A stretch of DNA of 45,696 bases from a virus. The stretch is from positions 1 to 45,696 of the IMG/VR virus record IMGVR_UViG_3300042988_000457; one strand, 5' to 3'. The notes beneath the pieces are model-generated. The model worked only from the letters and a program-made list of their open reading frames with translations. It was not told the origin of the DNA and did no database searches. Position 1 is the stretch's first letter. Every line of letters starts with the position of its first letter. This document shows positions 24,476-45,696 of this stretch, piece after piece. The translations under genes were made by a program, and so were the position numbers.

Positions 24476-24726
24476 AAGAAATACCTGTTTCAGAAATTAA
24501 AGAGCTAGACGTTTTGTTTGTGCCAGAGCTTTCCGGCGCACAGATTGTTCTAAAGCAGCATGGACAGCTAAAGCTAGTGCCGTCTTATTTTCTTGCCGAA
24601 AGTGATGACGACTCTTTTAGCGAGACGCTATCTAAAGCATCGTTTAGAAATCTGTCCTTTATCAATTCCGACAAAGCCGTAAAATGCGGCGAATTGAAAA
24701 AGCATTGGAAGATTGTCAAAGCCTAA
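24472..24726 (+). CDS. Small hypothetical protein ending second island
   Basis: An 84-residue protein (VSEIKELDVLFVPELSGAQIVL then acidic AESDDDSFSETLSK). The stop overlaps the terminase stop by 11 bases as TCA-N5-TAA, the same spacing as at 21837-21847. Function unknown. Confidence 0.6.
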   Translation: MKEIPVSEIKELDVLFVPELSGAQIVLKQHGQLKLVPSYFLAESDDDSFSETLSKASFRNLSFINSDKAVKCGELKKHWKIVKA

Positions 24727-27247
24727 ATGTCCTAGCATCCTGAATCAAATACTGCGATTGCTCCGCTTCAATCAATTCTGCTTCTACGTCAATATAATCA
24801 GGCGTGACTTTTTCTGATATAGATTGGAAATTGCCCATTTTGATTGGCTTGGCGGTTGATAGCAAGTTGGTGTAGGCCATAACTAGGCTGTTACGGCAGT
24901 TATGGACTAGCACCCCGTTAGCAAAGTATTCGTGGCAATCTTCTACTTCAAGGTTAAATACTTTTTCTATACGACCTTCGTAATTTTCCACTACATTCGC
25001 GTGAGCAAGTTTTGGTTTTTGCGTATTTGTATGCCTTGAATGTTTGTCCGCAAATTTGGCAATTTTTATCAATCCAGTTCCACTCGTTTCGTCGTTGCTG
25101 CGCGACCTTGCAATTGACATGGCAGAATTTGACTGTGTTATGCGAAGTGTAGACTTCAAAATCCTTTCCGCAGTATTGACAGACAAATTTTTTATTTGTG
25201 AAGCTTTTTCCGAGCGAAGTTGAATAATTTCGCTTTGAAAATTCTCGCGCTTCTTCGGTGTGATGCCATTCAACGGCGAGCTTTCTAATTGATGCAAGAT
25301 GAGCCAAATGCTTTTCGGTAAGCCTTCCAGCGTCATCGGCGTGTTTTTCTCCGTGCTGCTTTGCTGTAAGCATTTCGAGATTGGAAATGTCGTTGTTAAG
25401 CGTGTTTTTGTCTTTGTGGTGTATGTGGCATCCTTTAGGGATTTCTGAAAGTCCGTGATGATGCTTGTAAATTTCTTGGTGAAGCGAGAGGCTTTTCCCA
25501 GGAGACTTGATTTCACTTGTGAAATAGTATTTACGCAAGTGTGAGCGAGTCGAGTTTGGATAGCGGCGGAATTTTCTGCCGTTGAATACGATGGTTTCAG
25601 ATAGTTGAGACATATCGAAACTTTATCACCATTTCGCAAGCTGTCAAGCCTAGTCCATCCTTTTTTGTATTGCCAAATTGGATGATTGCAAGTTCCGATA
25701 AGCGATTTTCCATTGTCAAACAATAATTGTCGCGTTTTTTTTACGCCTGTGCTTCCGGCTGAAAGCACTTTACGCAATCCTTTTCTAGTCCAAACCTTGT
25801 CGCCAACTTTAATTTTTTCAATTGGCGTTTCTCCAAGTTCTGTCAATACCATTGTTCCGGCCACAAAGCAGGATTCTAGCTGGTCGTCCCCCCCGTTTTG
25901 GTTTTCAGAATCAAAATTGATTTTTTGAATATCATTCGGCTTCTTTTCATCGCATTGCGCCATCTGAATTTGCTGAATAAGTTCTGTGCAATTCTTGTGG
26001 ATAAAAAGTCTAGGCTGAATTTGCTTCTGAATATCTCCAAACATTTCTGCCATTTGCGCCCAAGCATTCACGCGGTCAATATGCACGGCTGTAAGCATCA
26101 ATCCGCGCTCCATGTATTCAGTCGCTACCGTGCCGCCGTCTTTGTCCACGCGAAAGCAATCCTTGCCAGCCGCGATAAATTCCAAGTCCTCTGGTATCAA
26201 TCCGCGTAGTGCTAGAATGTCCTTAATGTTCGCTGCGTGCTGTTCAATCGTCGTATTAGGCTCGCCATAGCTATCCGTGATAAAGACGCGTCCTGACTCA
26301 TCCTCGCAACAAAGCGTGAATGCCGTAGGATGGCTAAAGCCGTAGTCTAATCCCGCAAACCATCTTACAGTCGGGCATTTCTTTACGTCCAAATCAACTG
26401 TCTCATTCGGATACACATGGACGGTATCGTAGAAGTTGCTGAAAAAGCTACCCGCCATAAATTCCCAAGAGCCTTCAAGCCAAGCCATGCGTTGCCATCC
26501 GACTAGCGTTTGCAAAAATGCTTTGTATTCAGGATTGACAAATTTATTGTCGTCAACGGTTGAATGAATGTAGCGAGTATCTTTTTCCGTTCCATTTTTC
26601 CACGGGTCAACAAATTCTTTTTTATGCTCAATATGACTGATGCCGCCCGGATTTGTGTCCATGTATGCGCGGGGACGCCAATCAGTCTTATTTGTGCGTA
26701 AGCAAGACATGATATTTGTAATCTTGCTAGCGGAAAGCTGATTACACTCCATGATATAGATTAAGTCGTATTCAAGCCCCAAATACTTATCAATGTCTTT
26801 TTCGTCTTTGAAGTTTCCAAGAATGACTTGCGAGCCGTTGGCAAAATCAATTGTCTGCGCTTGCTCGCGGTAAGTATGCGGAAGATTGAATAGCAGCTTT
26901 TTACGGAAGTCAGCAATCTGTTCTTTATTTGCCCTACCGACTTTACGCAATGCCAATACTTTTAAGCCCTTAATTCGTTGGCAATCGTCGCAGAAAATTT
27001 GTGTAAGAATTGTCGTGCTTTTGCCCGACCCACGCCCGCCACCCGCAAGAATCTTTTTAGGCCCGTTTGGTAAATCACATTGACGACAAAGCGCGGCAAT
27101 CTCCAATTGCTTTTTCTGCATCGTCACGCCCGCCATCAAAAAGTTTTCGACTTGCTCTTTGCAGCATCCGGCTTCTTTAGCCATTTGACCAAATTTGATA
27201 ATCAAATCTAGTTGCTCTTGTTCGGCTTTAGAATATTTTTGAGCCAT
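24716..27247 (-). CDS. terL: Terminase large subunit interrupted by an intein
   Basis: An 843-residue precursor; the ATG at 27247 is used rather than a TTG at 27253. ATPase domain: Walker A GGGRGSGKS at residues 69-77, Walker B DLIYIME at 161-167. Nuclease domain: WFAGLDYGFSHPT near residue 285 and GGDDQLES just before residue 460. An intein occupies residues 460-783, between GGDDQLES and CRNSLVMAY. Removing it leaves a 519-residue terminase of normal size. The insertion point lies at the third acidic cluster of the RNase H-like nuclease, a conserved site as inteins prefer. The enzyme cuts and pumps DNA into the prohead. Splicing must occur before packaging. Confidence 0.85.
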   Translation of the reverse strand: MAQKYSKAEQEQLDLIIKFGQMAKEAGCCKEQVENFLMAGVTMQKKQLEIAALCRQCDLPNGPKKILAGGGRGSGKSTTILTQIFCDDCQRIKGLKVLALRKVGRANKEQIADFRKKLLFNLPHTYREQAQTIDFANGSQVILGNFKDEKDIDKYLGLEYDLIYIMECNQLSASKITNIMSCLRTNKTDWRPRAYMDTNPGGISHIEHKKEFVDPWKNGTEKDTRYIHSTVDDNKFVNPEYKAFLQTLVGWQRMAWLEGSWEFMAGSFFSNFYDTVHVYPNETVDLDVKKCPTVRWFAGLDYGFSHPTAFTLCCEDESGRVFITDSYGEPNTTIEQHAANIKDILALRGLIPEDLEFIAAGKDCFRVDKDGGTVATEYMERGLMLTAVHIDRVNAWAQMAEMFGDIQKQIQPRLFIHKNCTELIQQIQMAQCDEKKPNDIQKINFDSENQNGGDDQLESCFVAGTMVLTELGETPIEKIKVGDKVWTRKGLRKVLSAGSTGVKKTRQLLFDNGKSLIGTCNHPIWQYKKGWTRLDSLRNGDKVSICLNYLKPSYSTAENSAAIQTRLAHTCVNTISQVKSSLLGKASRFTKKFTSIITDFQKSLKDATYTTKTKTRLTTTFPISKCLQQSSTEKNTPMTLEGLPKSIWLILHQLESSPLNGITPKKRENFQSEIIQLRSEKASQIKNLSVNTAERILKSTLRITQSNSAMSIARSRSNDETSGTGLIKIAKFADKHSRHTNTQKPKLAHANVVENYEGRIEKVFNLEVEDCHEYFANGVLVHNCRNSLVMAYTNLLSTAKPIKMGNFQSISEKVTPDYIDVEAELIEAEQSQYLIQDARTFRL
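24899..25870 (-). mobile_element. Intein in terminase large subunit (324 residues)
   Basis: The N-terminal end CFVAGTMVLTELGETPIEKI has the intein block A pattern, with Cys1. GTCNHPIWQY matches block B (the TxxH His). The C-terminal end has NYEGRIEKVFNLEVEDCHEYF (block F) and ANGVLVHN followed by Cys (block G, His-Asn-Cys). All splicing residues are present, so it should be active. The 220 codons between positions 25613 and 24954 in this frame show no DOD/LAGLIDADG motif and read as Ser/Thr/Lys-rich sequence. That DNA instead carries an HNH gene in the -1 frame. Confidence 0.85.
24954..25613 (-). CDS. HNH homing endonuclease nested out of frame in the intein
   Basis: A 219-residue protein on the same strand as the terminase, in the -1 frame. 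It has a NUMOD-like start (FNGRKFRRYPNSTRSHLR), the HNH core GCHIHHKDKNTLNNDISNLEML (His65/His66, Asp68, Asn73/Asn74, Asn78), and two C-terminal zinc-finger-like parts (CQYCGKDF...FCHVNC and CQICGQTF...TCSREC). Its ATG at 25613 is preceded by an in-frame TAA, so it is not a simple extension of the intein. Its last codons overlap the intein block F coding. Standalone translation needs an internal start with only a weak ribosome site. It probably cuts intein-less terminase alleles. Confidence 0.85.
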   Translation of the reverse strand: MSQLSETIVFNGRKFRRYPNSTRSHLRKYYFTSEIKSPGKSLSLHQEIYKHHHGLSEIPKGCHIHHKDKNTLNNDISNLEMLTAKQHGEKHADDAGRLTEKHLAHLASIRKLAVEWHHTEEAREFSKRNYSTSLGKSFTNKKFVCQYCGKDFEVYTSHNTVKFCHVNCKVAQQRRNEWNWIDKNCQICGQTFKAYKYAKTKTCSRECSGKLRRSYRKSI

Positions 27248-27249
27248 AA

Positions 27250-27429
27250 TCAATCAACTTCGTAAAGCTGTTCAATCGGAATTTGAATGTAATGGGCAAG
27301 TGGCGTTCCCCAAAAAGATTCAAGACACACAGTTACTAGTTGCAATTTTCTGCCAGTCATTTCAGAAATTCGATAAATGTGTCCGTTCTGGTTTTTAACC
27401 CTAGCTCCGTATTTTATTTCTGTAATCAT
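27250..27429 (-). CDS. Small hypothetical protein upstream of terminase
   Basis: A 59-residue protein (MITEIKYGARVKNQNGHIYRIS, then CLESFWGTPLAHYIQIPIEQL). The sequence looks like a small SH3-like barrel. Its stop lies two bases before the terminase ATG, so the two are likely co-translated. Function unknown; a position before the large terminase makes a packaging accessory possible. Confidence 0.6.
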   Translation of the reverse strand: MITEIKYGARVKNQNGHIYRISEMTGRKLQLVTVCLESFWGTPLAHYIQIPIEQLYEVD

Positions 27430-42888: not shown

Positions 42889-43086
42889 ATGACAACCACA
42901 AAATTTAATCCATATAATGATTATCTACGGGCTCAAAAACCAAAAGAAGCTAGGCTTTTAGCTAGGCGGCGAAAAAATAACGCATGGAATAAAATGCGTT
43001 ACGCAGAAGAACCATTGCACCGCGAAATTGTTTTACAAAAAGCCAAAGAGCATTACCAACAAAAGAAAAATGAAACTACCAATTAA
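42889..43086 (+). CDS. Small basic protein
   Basis: A 65-residue, Arg/Lys-rich protein (KEARLLARRRKNNAWNKMRYAEEPLHREIVLQKAKEHYQQKK). Probably DNA- or RNA-binding. It overlaps the resolvase-like gene start by 17 bases. Confidence 0.6.
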   Translation: MTTTKFNPYNDYLRAQKPKEARLLARRRKNNAWNKMRYAEEPLHREIVLQKAKEHYQQKKNETTN

Positions 43087-43447
43087 ATTTATGACTGAAC
43101 TTCCAAAGCGGATAAACATTCAACAACTATTTCCAAATGCCTCAAAAGATTTTATCGCTAGAAATTCCCCACAAACTGCCGTCGTGGAATCAGATATTGG
43201 GACTCCATCATTGGGCGAGAAAAAAGCTGAAAGACCAAATAGCTCAAGATTTCTTGTCCGCGTTACGAGCTTCCGAAAACGACTCCTTGACGAAGATAAC
43301 TTGTGCGAAAAATACCACGTTGACCTATGCCGATACGCTGGAATCATATCTTGCGACTCGCCAGATAAAGTCAAAATTGAAGTCGGACAAAAAAAAATTG
43401 GAAGCAAAGAAGTTGAAAAAACTCTAGTTGAAGTTTGGGAATTGTAA
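43070..43447 (+). CDS. RusA-like Holliday junction resolvase, frame carrying C-terminal motif
   Basis: A 125-residue frame from ATG 43070. Its second half reads RVTSFRKRLLDEDNLCEKYHVDLCRYAGIISCDSPDKVKIEVGQ, where LDEDN and the following LCRYAGII...CDSPD match the RusA acidic active-site pattern (D-DN...aGvi.dD). Its first half (MTELPKRINIQQLFPNASKD) is not RusA-like. The RusA N-terminal pattern lies in the other frame, so this protein alone may lack part of the fold. It overlaps the helicase ATG upstream by only two bases. Confidence 0.6.
   Translation: MKLPIKFMTELPKRINIQQLFPNASKDFIARNSPQTAVVESDIGTPSLGEKKAERPNSSRFLVRVTSFRKRLLDEDNLCEKYHVDLCRYAGIISCDSPDKVKIEVGQKKIGSKEVEKTLVEVWEL
43137..43427 (+). 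CDS. RusA-like N-terminal segment in an overlapping frame
   Basis: A 96-residue frame from ATG 43137. IPHKLPSWNQILGLHHWARKKLKDQIAQDFLSAL has the RusA N-terminal layout (Pro-x-x-Trp-Asn, then HWARKK helix). After this the frame becomes Lys-rich and less protein-like. A -1 slip at A AAA AAG (43220-43226) would join it to the frame that holds the LDEDN motif. It may therefore be the true start of one resolvase. Confidence 0.5.
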   Translation: MPQKILSLEIPHKLPSWNQILGLHHWARKKLKDQIAQDFLSALRASENDSLTKITCAKNTTLTYADTLESYLATRQIKSKLKSDKKKLEAKKLKKL

Positions 43448-43449
43448 AA

Positions 43450-45696
43450 ATGAAACTCTCTCTCCGTCCTTATCAGCAATCAGCAGTTGACTCGTCGTTT
43501 TTGGAATGGGAATCAAATGACTCTACGCTGATTGTGCTGCCTACGGCGTGTGGCAAGACCCTGACATTTGCGGGGATTATTGAGCGTATGCAGCCAAAGC
43601 GGGTTATGGTTTTGGCGCATCGTCAGGAATTGATTTGGCAGGCAAAGGATAAAATTGAGCGAGTCACAGGATTAAAAGCAGATGTTGAAATGGGTGAATA
43701 CCGCGCTTCGCAAGAAGGCTGTATGTTTCATCCGAAGGCGCAAGTCATTGTCTCTACAATTCAGACGCATATTTCTGGCAATGATGGCAATGGTCGAATG
43801 ACGAAGTTTGACCCGCATGATTTTGGATTACTGATTATTGACGAGGCGCATCATGCGGTTAGCGGTGGATACAAGAAAGTCATCGAATACTATCAGCAAA
43901 ATCCTACGCTGAAAGTTTTAGGCGTCACAGCCACGCCGGACAGAGGCGATGAAGAAGCATTGGGGCAAGTATTTGATACAGTTGCATACGACTATGAGAT
44001 TTTAGACGCAATTCATGACGGTTGGATTGTTCCGGTAGAGCAACAAATGGTAGAGGTCGAGGACTTAAATTTTGAATCAATCCATACAGTAGCAGGTGAT
44101 TTGAATAGCGGAGAATTGGCAGAGTTAATGACACGCGAAAAGCCGCTACATGGTGTAGCTAGTTCAACCATTGACATTATCGGCAATAAGCGCGGTATCG
44201 GCTTCGCATCATCTGTTGAACACGCTAGAATTTTGTCAGAGATTTTTAATCGCCATAAAGCAGGCATGGCCAGTTGGATTTGTGGCAAGACAGATAAAGA
44301 CGAGCGCAAAAAAATTCTGTCTGACTTTGGCAATGGAACAATTCAATTTCTTTGGAATTGCGGAGTGCTTTGTCTTGACGACAAGACAGAAATCTTAACT
44401 AGCGAAGGATGGATTGGAATTGACAGCATGACATATCAGCACAAGGTTGCAAATTGGGATAATGGAAATGTCTTTTTCAAAGAGCCAAAGTTTATTGTTC
44501 GCAGGGATAGACACGAAGGCGAAAAAATGGTTGTGCTTGAGACTAAAAATCGCTCAATTCGCGTTACTGGCGACCATAGAATGTTGTTCAAAAAATACAG
44601 CCGCGAGAATTTTGAAATCGTCCACGCATCTGATTTGGTTGGAAAAAGAGGATTTTTACCAATATCGGGAGAGTCTAAAGAATTTGAACTGACAATTGAA
44701 AATGAGCCTGAATTGACGGAAAAGCAGCTTAATAGAAACATTTCCGCAAATTCATACATCTTAAGAAAGTTGCATGGGTATTCGGATTTAGAGTCAAAAA
44801 TTGAGGCAAAAAAAAGAATTTTGCAGAATGAGTGCCTAAAATACACGCAGCCAAAAGAGCTAACAAATGATGATTGCAAGCTGATTGGATATTGGCTAGG
44901 CGACGGAAGCGTTGGTCGCGGAAATAAGGGCGGATTAACATATACGCTTTGTCAGGCGGCAAGAGATAAAAACATTTGCGACGAAGTGTCTAGGCTTCTT
45001 GAATCCTGTGGATTTGATTACAAAAAAAGATTTGTAAAAAATATATGCCTATGGTCAATGTCTCGCGGGACAGGTTTTGGAAATCAAAAAAGAAATGGAT
45101 TATATCGAATTGAGCCTTATCTGAAAAAGCTTGGAACAAATCTTTTTTGGGCGTTGAATCAATCTCAATTTGATTCTTTGGTTGCTGGCTTTTGGATGGC
45201 AGACGGCAATCATTATGATTTTGTAGAGCCAAATTTGCCAACAATGCGAATTTCAAATACCAAAAAGCCCATTTTAGATTTACTGCAAGCTATTGCTTGT
45301 GTTCGCGGTTATCGTGCCAGCATCACAGAAAGCAAGCCAAGAAATAAAAATTCTAATACTCTTTATTGCCTGTCTTTGACAAAAAGGACTCAACATGAAA
45401 TGACAAAGTATCGGCTTCAATTTGAGGATGGATGGAAGCCGGAAAGGGTTTGGTGCGTTACAAGCGACACTGGCAACATTATTACTCGCCGTCGCGGGAC
45501 TGTTGTTGTCACCGGAAATACAGAGGGATTTGACGATACAGGCGTTGAAATCATTTCAATGGCTAGGCCGACTAAAAGCCGCGCTCTATACGCTCAAATG
45601 GCGGGCAGAGCATTTAGACCGCATCATACTATCGCTAGCCAGCTAGGATTATGCCCTGCCGCCGCTGTTCGTCGTGCTATGATAGCCCGTAGCGTC
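43450..45696 (+). CDS. DEAD/DEAH helicase with intein (runs off right end)
   Basis: The frame is open from ATG 43450 to the last base (749 codons). Motifs: Walker A LPTACGKT (residues 30-37), motif Ia LAHRQE, DEAH IIDEAHH (Asp131), motif III GVTATPDR, then GVL|TEGFD motif V split by an intein at residue 308, and motif VI YAQMAGRAFRP. It is a superfamily 2 helicase of the type seen in many phages, acting in replication or recombination. The end of the gene appears at positions 1-590, with a short missing segment in between. Confidence 0.85.
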   Translation, partial: MKLSLRPYQQSAVDSSFLEWESNDSTLIVLPTACGKTLTFAGIIERMQPKRVMVLAHRQELIWQAKDKIERVTGLKADVEMGEYRASQEGCMFHPKAQVIVSTIQTHISGNDGNGRMTKFDPHDFGLLIIDEAHHAVSGGYKKVIEYYQQNPTLKVLGVTATPDRGDEEALGQVFDTVAYDYEILDAIHDGWIVPVEQQMVEVEDLNFESIHTVAGDLNSGELAELMTREKPLHGVASSTIDIIGNKRGIGFASSVEHARILSEIFNRHKAGMASWICGKTDKDERKKILSDFGNGTIQFLWNCGVLCLDDKTEILTSEGWIGIDSMTYQHKVANWDNGNVFFKEPKFIVRRDRHEGEKMVVLETKNRSIRVTGDHRMLFKKYSRENFEIVHASDLVGKRGFLPISGESKEFELTIENEPELTEKQLNRNISANSYILRKLHGYSDLESKIEAKKRILQNECLKYTQPKELTNDDCKLIGYWLGDGSVGRGNKGGLTYTLCQAARDKNICDEVSRLLESCGFDYKKRFVKNICLWSMSRGTGFGNQKRNGLYRIEPYLKKLGTNLFWALNQSQFDSLVAGFWMADGNHYDFVEPNLPTMRISNTKKPILDLLQAIACVRGYRASITESKPRNKNSNTLYCLSLTKRTQHEMTKYRLQFEDGWKPERVWCVTSDTGNIITRRRGTVVVTGNTEGFDDTGVEIISMARPTKSRALYAQMAGRAFRPHHTIASQLGLCPAAAVRRAMIARSV
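44371..45519 (+). mobile_element. Intein with LAGLIDADG endonuclease in helicase (383 residues)
   Basis: It begins with CLDDKTEILTSEGW (block A, Cys1), has TGDHRML (block B), two DOD motifs LIGYWLGDGS and LVAGFWMADGN, then VWCVTSDTGNIITRRRG (block F) and VVVTGN followed by Thr (block G). The penultimate residue is Gly rather than the usual His, a known variant; the +1 residue is Thr. The insertion lies within helicase motif V (VL|TEGFD). Spliced, the helicase motif is restored. Confidence 0.85.

Follow-up and report, generated by a model that had tools for sequence, protein, structure and literature searches.

Overlapping genes in two frames of a tailed-phage genome probably encode the two chains of a split RusA-like resolvase

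Towards the end of virus record IMGVR_UViG_3300042988_000457, whose 45,696 bases were analysed in full (hereafter, the window), two same-strand reading frames overlap, and each carries a part of what looks like a RusA-like resolvase. The locus raises the question whether these parts are joined by ribosomal frameshifting, are remnants of a broken gene, or are produced as separate proteins. The window belongs to a tailed phage, as indicated by profile matches to portal, terminase and head proteins. The first of the two frames, referred to here as A, contains the motifs LPSWN and HHWARKK, and its segment LSLEIPHKLPSWNQILGLHHWARKKLKDQIAQDFLSALRAS resembles the N-terminus of RusA proteins. Frame B, which is the A frame shifted by -1, is free of stops over 43028-43447 and carries RLLDEDN, YAGII and DSPD; within it, FLVRVTSFRKRLLDEDNLCEKYHVDLCRYAGIISCDSPD corresponds to the RusA catalytic pattern. 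The two patterns that a sequence-only reading had placed here, N-terminal in the frame from 43137 and acidic C-terminal in the -1 frame, were therefore both confirmed. The features of the locus are as follows:

43070-43447, + strand: gene B, catalytic (RusA C-terminal-half) protein of 125 aa; ATG at 43070 (alternative ATG at 43091), stop at 43445-43447
43100-43150, + strand: B, N-terminal leader, LFPNASKDFIARN region; common to many relatives, replaced or absent in others
43137-43427, + strand: gene A, putative RusA N-terminal-half protein of 96 aa, nested in the +1 frame of B; ATG at 43137, stop at 43425-43427
43152-43190, + strand: A, presumed first strand and loop, LSLEIPHKLPSWN; in the alignment W and N are invariant, P and S nearly so
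43209-43283, + strand: A, predicted helix alpha-1, residues 25-49 (AF2 model of A)
43220-43226, + strand: heptamer A AAA AAG in frame A; present here, not conserved in relatives
43245-43270, + strand: dual-coding core, A helix QDFLSALRA over B strand RFLVRVTSF, with selection on both frames
43289-43300, + strand: B, D-E-D-N catalytic motif, Asp74/Asp76 equivalent to E. coli RusA D70/D72 (invariant Asp columns; structural match to 1q8r, 2h8c and 2h8e)
43326-43358, + strand: A, C-terminal motif YADTLESYLAT in a predicted helix (AF2 helix 60-95), conserved independently of B
43355-43357, + strand: B, third acidic residue Asp96, equivalent to RusA D91 by spacing from a conserved Gly; invariant in the alignment

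A helicase gene lies directly 3' of B, and DNA-metabolism genes are found upstream at 37-38 kb. The helicase (43450-45696; phrog_16, ResIII/DEAD) carries a LAGLIDADG-type intein-like insertion and runs past the window end. Elsewhere in the window, terminase profiles match the terminase large subunit (24716-27253, 845 aa) in blocks that stand apart, other matches falling between them (around residues 450-540), which suggests that it contains an intein or another insertion.

Relatives were collected by frame-B searches of IMG/VR, which returned 39, then 80 and then 53 loci in strongly overlapping sets, supplemented by three Verrucomicrobia genome loci and two genome loci from a phylum-wide search (L128 and L129); they include the archaeal virus BK063671 (L040), whose host is given as Methanomicrobiales. 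A search with the frame-A protein of one relative (L103) gave 20 loci, with identical layout wherever it was read. After collapsing, 91 distinct loci were obtained, and the RusA N-terminal motif was located in the +1 frame of the catalytic motif in 88 of them by an automatic test and by eye in the remaining three (L095, L097 and L129), which have longer spacing. Four more loci missed by the anchor pattern have the motif in +1 as well (by eye). The N-terminal half is thus in the +1 frame of the catalytic half at all 95 distinct loci, in phages, the archaeal virus and Verrucomicrobiota genomes, and the two-frame layout is far beyond chance. In the deposited annotation of BK063671.1 only the frame-A protein is given (vir555_00024, hypothetical), while the catalytic frame-B gene is unannotated.

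At none of the 95 distinct loci was the RusA N-terminal motif found in B's own frame, that is, in the single continuous chain typical of the RusA family. The relative with one continuous frame and without the heptamer that the sequence-only reading had named as its refutation was searched for in vain at these loci, and no single-frame close relative was detected among viral contigs, in one genome-contig scan, among phages or in 387 Verrucomicrobiota genomes. The single-frame proteins that did turn up there (L132, L134 and L158) are ordinary distant RusA. That two halves of a single domain stand in different frames would by itself suit a decayed or wrongly sequenced RusA gene; against this, the same layout, with purifying selection, recurs at 95/95 distinct loci, which come from independent assemblies and include relatives with as little as about 30% identity. 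We consider such an explanation extremely improbable, and the sequencing error or mutation envisaged from the sequence alone is excluded by the presence of the two-frame layout in every relative found.

Both frames are kept open well beyond what codon usage would produce. For 53 lineages less than 80% identical, expected stops were obtained by drawing new codons according to the codon usage of the respective lineage while the better-constrained protein was held fixed. Across A's half, frame B contains 0 stops versus 57.4 expected and is open in 53/53 lineages. Across 40 codons of B's catalytic half, frame A contains 14 stops versus 74.2 expected and is open through that half in 48/53 lineages versus 12.8 expected, all 14 stops being confined to five divergent lineages (L129, L194, L197, L233 and L240). 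Control genes from the same loci gave 433 stops against 456 expected in the +1 frame and 538 against 665 in the +2 frame, which is near normal. As the lineages are related, the counts do not amount to a formal probability, but given how far synonymous sites have diverged, the contrast with these controls is large. Of the two things that were to be followed in relatives, the open frames therefore proved conserved and the heptamer did not, a heptamer of the type X XXY YYZ being present at this site in 5/40 relatives.

A frame-aware substitution count divides the locus into three zones. In A's first half, 5' of the overlap, changes that are silent in A and alter B are saturated, while A-altering changes are held down, and dNN/dNS of B reaches 1.33; A is constrained there and B is not. 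At 43245-43270 (about 26 bp), A-altering and B-altering changes are both held down, so that this shared stretch is under purifying selection in both frames. In the catalytic half, 3' of the overlap, the picture of the first zone is reversed: it is B that is constrained (0.06-0.25), and selection acts mostly on this frame. The third bases of B codons show what is kept in A: counted from the catalytic anchor, the B-synonymous third positions -43, -31, -28 and -19 are occupied by T in 34 to 36 of the 36 lineages, and these positions correspond to A residues i, i+4, i+5 and i+8, which form one helix face. The last three of them (-31, -28 and -19) sit on the DNA of B's strand. Conversely, when the 36 lineages are examined per codon, A-silent bases become fixed from offset -38 onward, where B's strand starts.

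Two lineages from GC-rich phages (L095 and L097) have about 11 extra residues between A's helix and B's strand. Their A helix ends upstream and shares no DNA with the B strand, and the codons there are free. This arrangement possibly represents an older or a different state.

Further downstream, unusual codon choices in B preserve the A motif ADTLxSYL, with z up to 9.8 (B third bases at +54, z 9.8, and at +66, z 6.1). In this region, a third-base T at an Ala codon occurs in 32/36 lineages versus 7.9 expected, and a third-base A at +63, mostly in the Ile codon ATA, in 23 versus 5.8 expected. Since the motif is maintained through B-synonymous choices, selection extends to the tail of A in most lineages; A stops soon after the helix in L233, L240 and L129.

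The arrangement of starts also fits translation of both frames. In six lineages each frame has its own start, the B start lying 3' of the A start by 5 nt (L041), 11 nt (L230 and L205, the latter with GTG), 14 nt (L207), 20 nt (L224) or 23 nt (L195), and in all six B-frame stops are present just 5' of the A start. Several tandem-start loci have Shine-Dalgarno-like sites, and in BK063671 AGGAGG stands directly 5' of A's ATG. Many other relatives have an upstream B start and a leader such as LFPNAS or IPxGYVEVRKGVYERI; the leader is absent in L094 and in five of the tandem-start lineages (L041, L205, L207, L224 and L230). Comparison of L041, L103-L119 and L205-L230 shows it swapped between unrelated short sequences (LFPNAS..., IPxGYVEVRKGVYERI or none), and in this respect the leader looks like an exchangeable module. 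In the window, no clear Shine-Dalgarno site was found for the A or the B start, and the exact starts given above are consequently tentative.

Taken together, stop avoidance and protein-level selection in both frames, with separate tandem starts in several lineages, bear out the proposals that both frames carry real protein sequence and form a dual-coding gene pair; that A and B are both real genes is strongly supported.

As for the identity of protein B, an AF2 model based on 40 sequences has 60 low-confidence residues, comprising the leader and a linker where the B sequence is free, followed by a confident strand-helix-strand-strand unit (residues 61-125, pLDDT about 92). A Foldseek search of this model against PDB gave nothing significant, and RusA was absent among the matches listed. 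After re-alignment with VIA-align, E. coli RusA 1q8r ranked first (Z 4.9, rmsd 2.6 over 63 residues, RusA 52-117), and 2h8c (Z 4.6) and 2h8e (Z 4.3) brought the number of RusA structures among the best four to three, with 63-64 residues aligned; as absolute values the RusA scores (Z 4.3-4.9) are low, with MIF-like folds following closely (Z 4.0-4.4). This ranking supports, without proving, a RusA fold for the modelled B half. BFVD matches of B include proteins named RusA. In B, D74, D76, D96 and K81 are invariant in 40 sequences, and by spacing the three acids match RusA D70, D72 and D91, the lysine being near the K76 position, one residue off the RusA spacing. B thus has three candidate catalytic acids and a nearby lysine, as RusA does, and L040 and L128, whose motif is DxDG, likewise retain the DxD pair and the later Asp. 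At the profile level, the RusA-like phrog_34 is matched by 16/40 members of the B family and PHROG RusA families by 11/19 composites of A and B. The window's own B alone matched no PHROG RusA profile, and the Pfam RusA profile was matched by neither A, B nor the composites. A sequence search of PDB with the window composite or a composite profile returned only unrelated weak matches and was set aside.

Whether A supplies the remainder of the fold is a separate matter, since both genes could be real and A still not be B's missing half; B would then act by itself or together with a host factor, while A would serve as a regulator or be a DNA-binding protein that is unrelated and overprinted. Some features of A would fit this. 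Modelled alone by AF2, it consists of helices, with a basic tail and without the first strand, and Foldseek found nothing for the model. Its resemblance to RusA at the sequence level is weak: A alone matches phrog_1682 in 2/41 cases (best E 0.033), and a profile-profile comparison with six canonical RusA proteins, a small set, aligned 12 columns weakly. Yet A begins with the RusA N-terminal pattern LxIPGxxPS(L/W)N, which is shared by L124 and L134, two single-frame RusA proteins, and the phrog_1682 RusA score is higher with native than with shuffled A in 5/5 comparisons. The folded part of B begins at RusA residue 52 and so is without the residues before it, and the shortest A (L233) ends directly after the first helix. 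A therefore looks, if weakly, like a homolog of RusA residues 1-51, and a partner of some other kind strikes us as unlikely.

The sequence-only reading had also offered programmed -1 slippage, by which the start of frame A would be joined to the end of frame B to give one RusA-like chain. The order of the halves and their relative frame suit such joining, and the heptamer A AAA AAG, known from dnaX-type -1 programmed frameshifting, was verified at 43220-43226 in the proper phase for frame A. Among 40 relatives, however, a heptamer of the form X XXY YYZ occurs at that site in five and at any other position in at most two, so that a conserved in-phase slippery site is absent and the occurrence of the heptamer is not beyond chance. 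Moreover, a frame reached by slippage is needed only after the slip site, yet B is stop-free upstream in 53/53 lineages; frameshifting leaves this, as well as the openness of A across most of B's half, unexplained. B has its own start and upstream stops in several lineages. A further difficulty concerns the dual-coding core: because the same bases encode the helix of A and the strand of B, no single -1 slip yields a chain with both, and slippage at A AAA AAG would delete the conserved helix of A. Slippage at this heptamer was accordingly rejected, and joining of the frames by programmed frameshifting, taken generally, is quite unlikely. In L095 and L097, where the helix ends before the B strand, a RusA of normal length would result from a -1 shift within the loop, and for these two lineages slippage is possible, as it is elsewhere as an additional minor route.

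We thus favour, with a probability of roughly 70%, the view that the locus is a dual-coding gene pair whose products form a two-chain (split) RusA-like resolvase. According to this proposal, each of two overlapping same-strand cistrons would have a start of its own and be translated from end to end in its own frame. The opening part of the RusA-type fold, from the first strand through the PS(W/L)N loop to the first helix, would come from A, to which a basic helical tail would be added in most lineages, including that of the window. In B, a short N-terminal leader and a linker of free sequence would precede the catalytic half, made up of a strand, the acidic motif, a helix and two strands. The two would associate non-covalently, as separate chains, and thereby rebuild a RusA-like junction-resolving nuclease. 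We infer that both chains are made in infected cells and, from the fold and the residues, that A and B bind each other and that branched DNA is cleaved. It also seems reasonably probable that the nuclease domain is now split between two obligate subunits with superimposed genes, in which the end of A's first helix and the start of B's central catalytic strand occupy one DNA segment, an arrangement that has persisted in an archaeal virus and in phages of different bacteria, no member of the clade with a single frame having been found.

Such a placement of complementary halves on shared DNA would tie the expression and evolution of A and B together and, if true, would offer a compact, testable system for the passage from a single-chain to a two-subunit enzyme. 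It also has a practical side, as annotation can retain one gene alone (frame A in BK063671) and so leave the enzyme hidden among hypothetical proteins. No report of a RusA divided into overlapping or split genes was found in the open-licence papers searched.

Among known systems, the locus shares with dnaX-type -1 frameshifting the A AAA AAG heptamer and its phase in the window, but the heptamer is unconserved in relatives and two separate chains are inferred here. The Rz and Rz1 genes of phage lambda are known overlapping phage genes that encode partner proteins. Like A and B, the genes of this spanin pair overlap on the same strand in different frames, and their two proteins act in one complex; unlike what appears to be the case for A and B, Rz and Rz1 are not the two halves of a single ancestral domain. 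Viruses commonly show overprinting, which usually gives a novel, unrelated second protein (PMC8227390). Overprinted viral genes share with the present locus selection in two frames on one stretch of DNA. However, in viral same-strand overlaps the partner of an old gene is usually new and unrelated to it, whereas the two frames here resemble parts of a single known fold, apparently as complementary halves of one enzyme. E. coli RusA (1q8r/2h8c; PF05866; phrog_34, phrog_1682) is likewise among the closest comparisons: the order of structural elements is the same when read over the two chains, invariant acids occupy the D70, D72 and D91 equivalents with a lysine near K76, and B's folded half superposes on RusA 52-117. 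The difference is that E. coli RusA is one continuous chain, whereas the apparent counterparts of its residues 1-51 and 52-117 are encoded here in separate frames that share their DNA.
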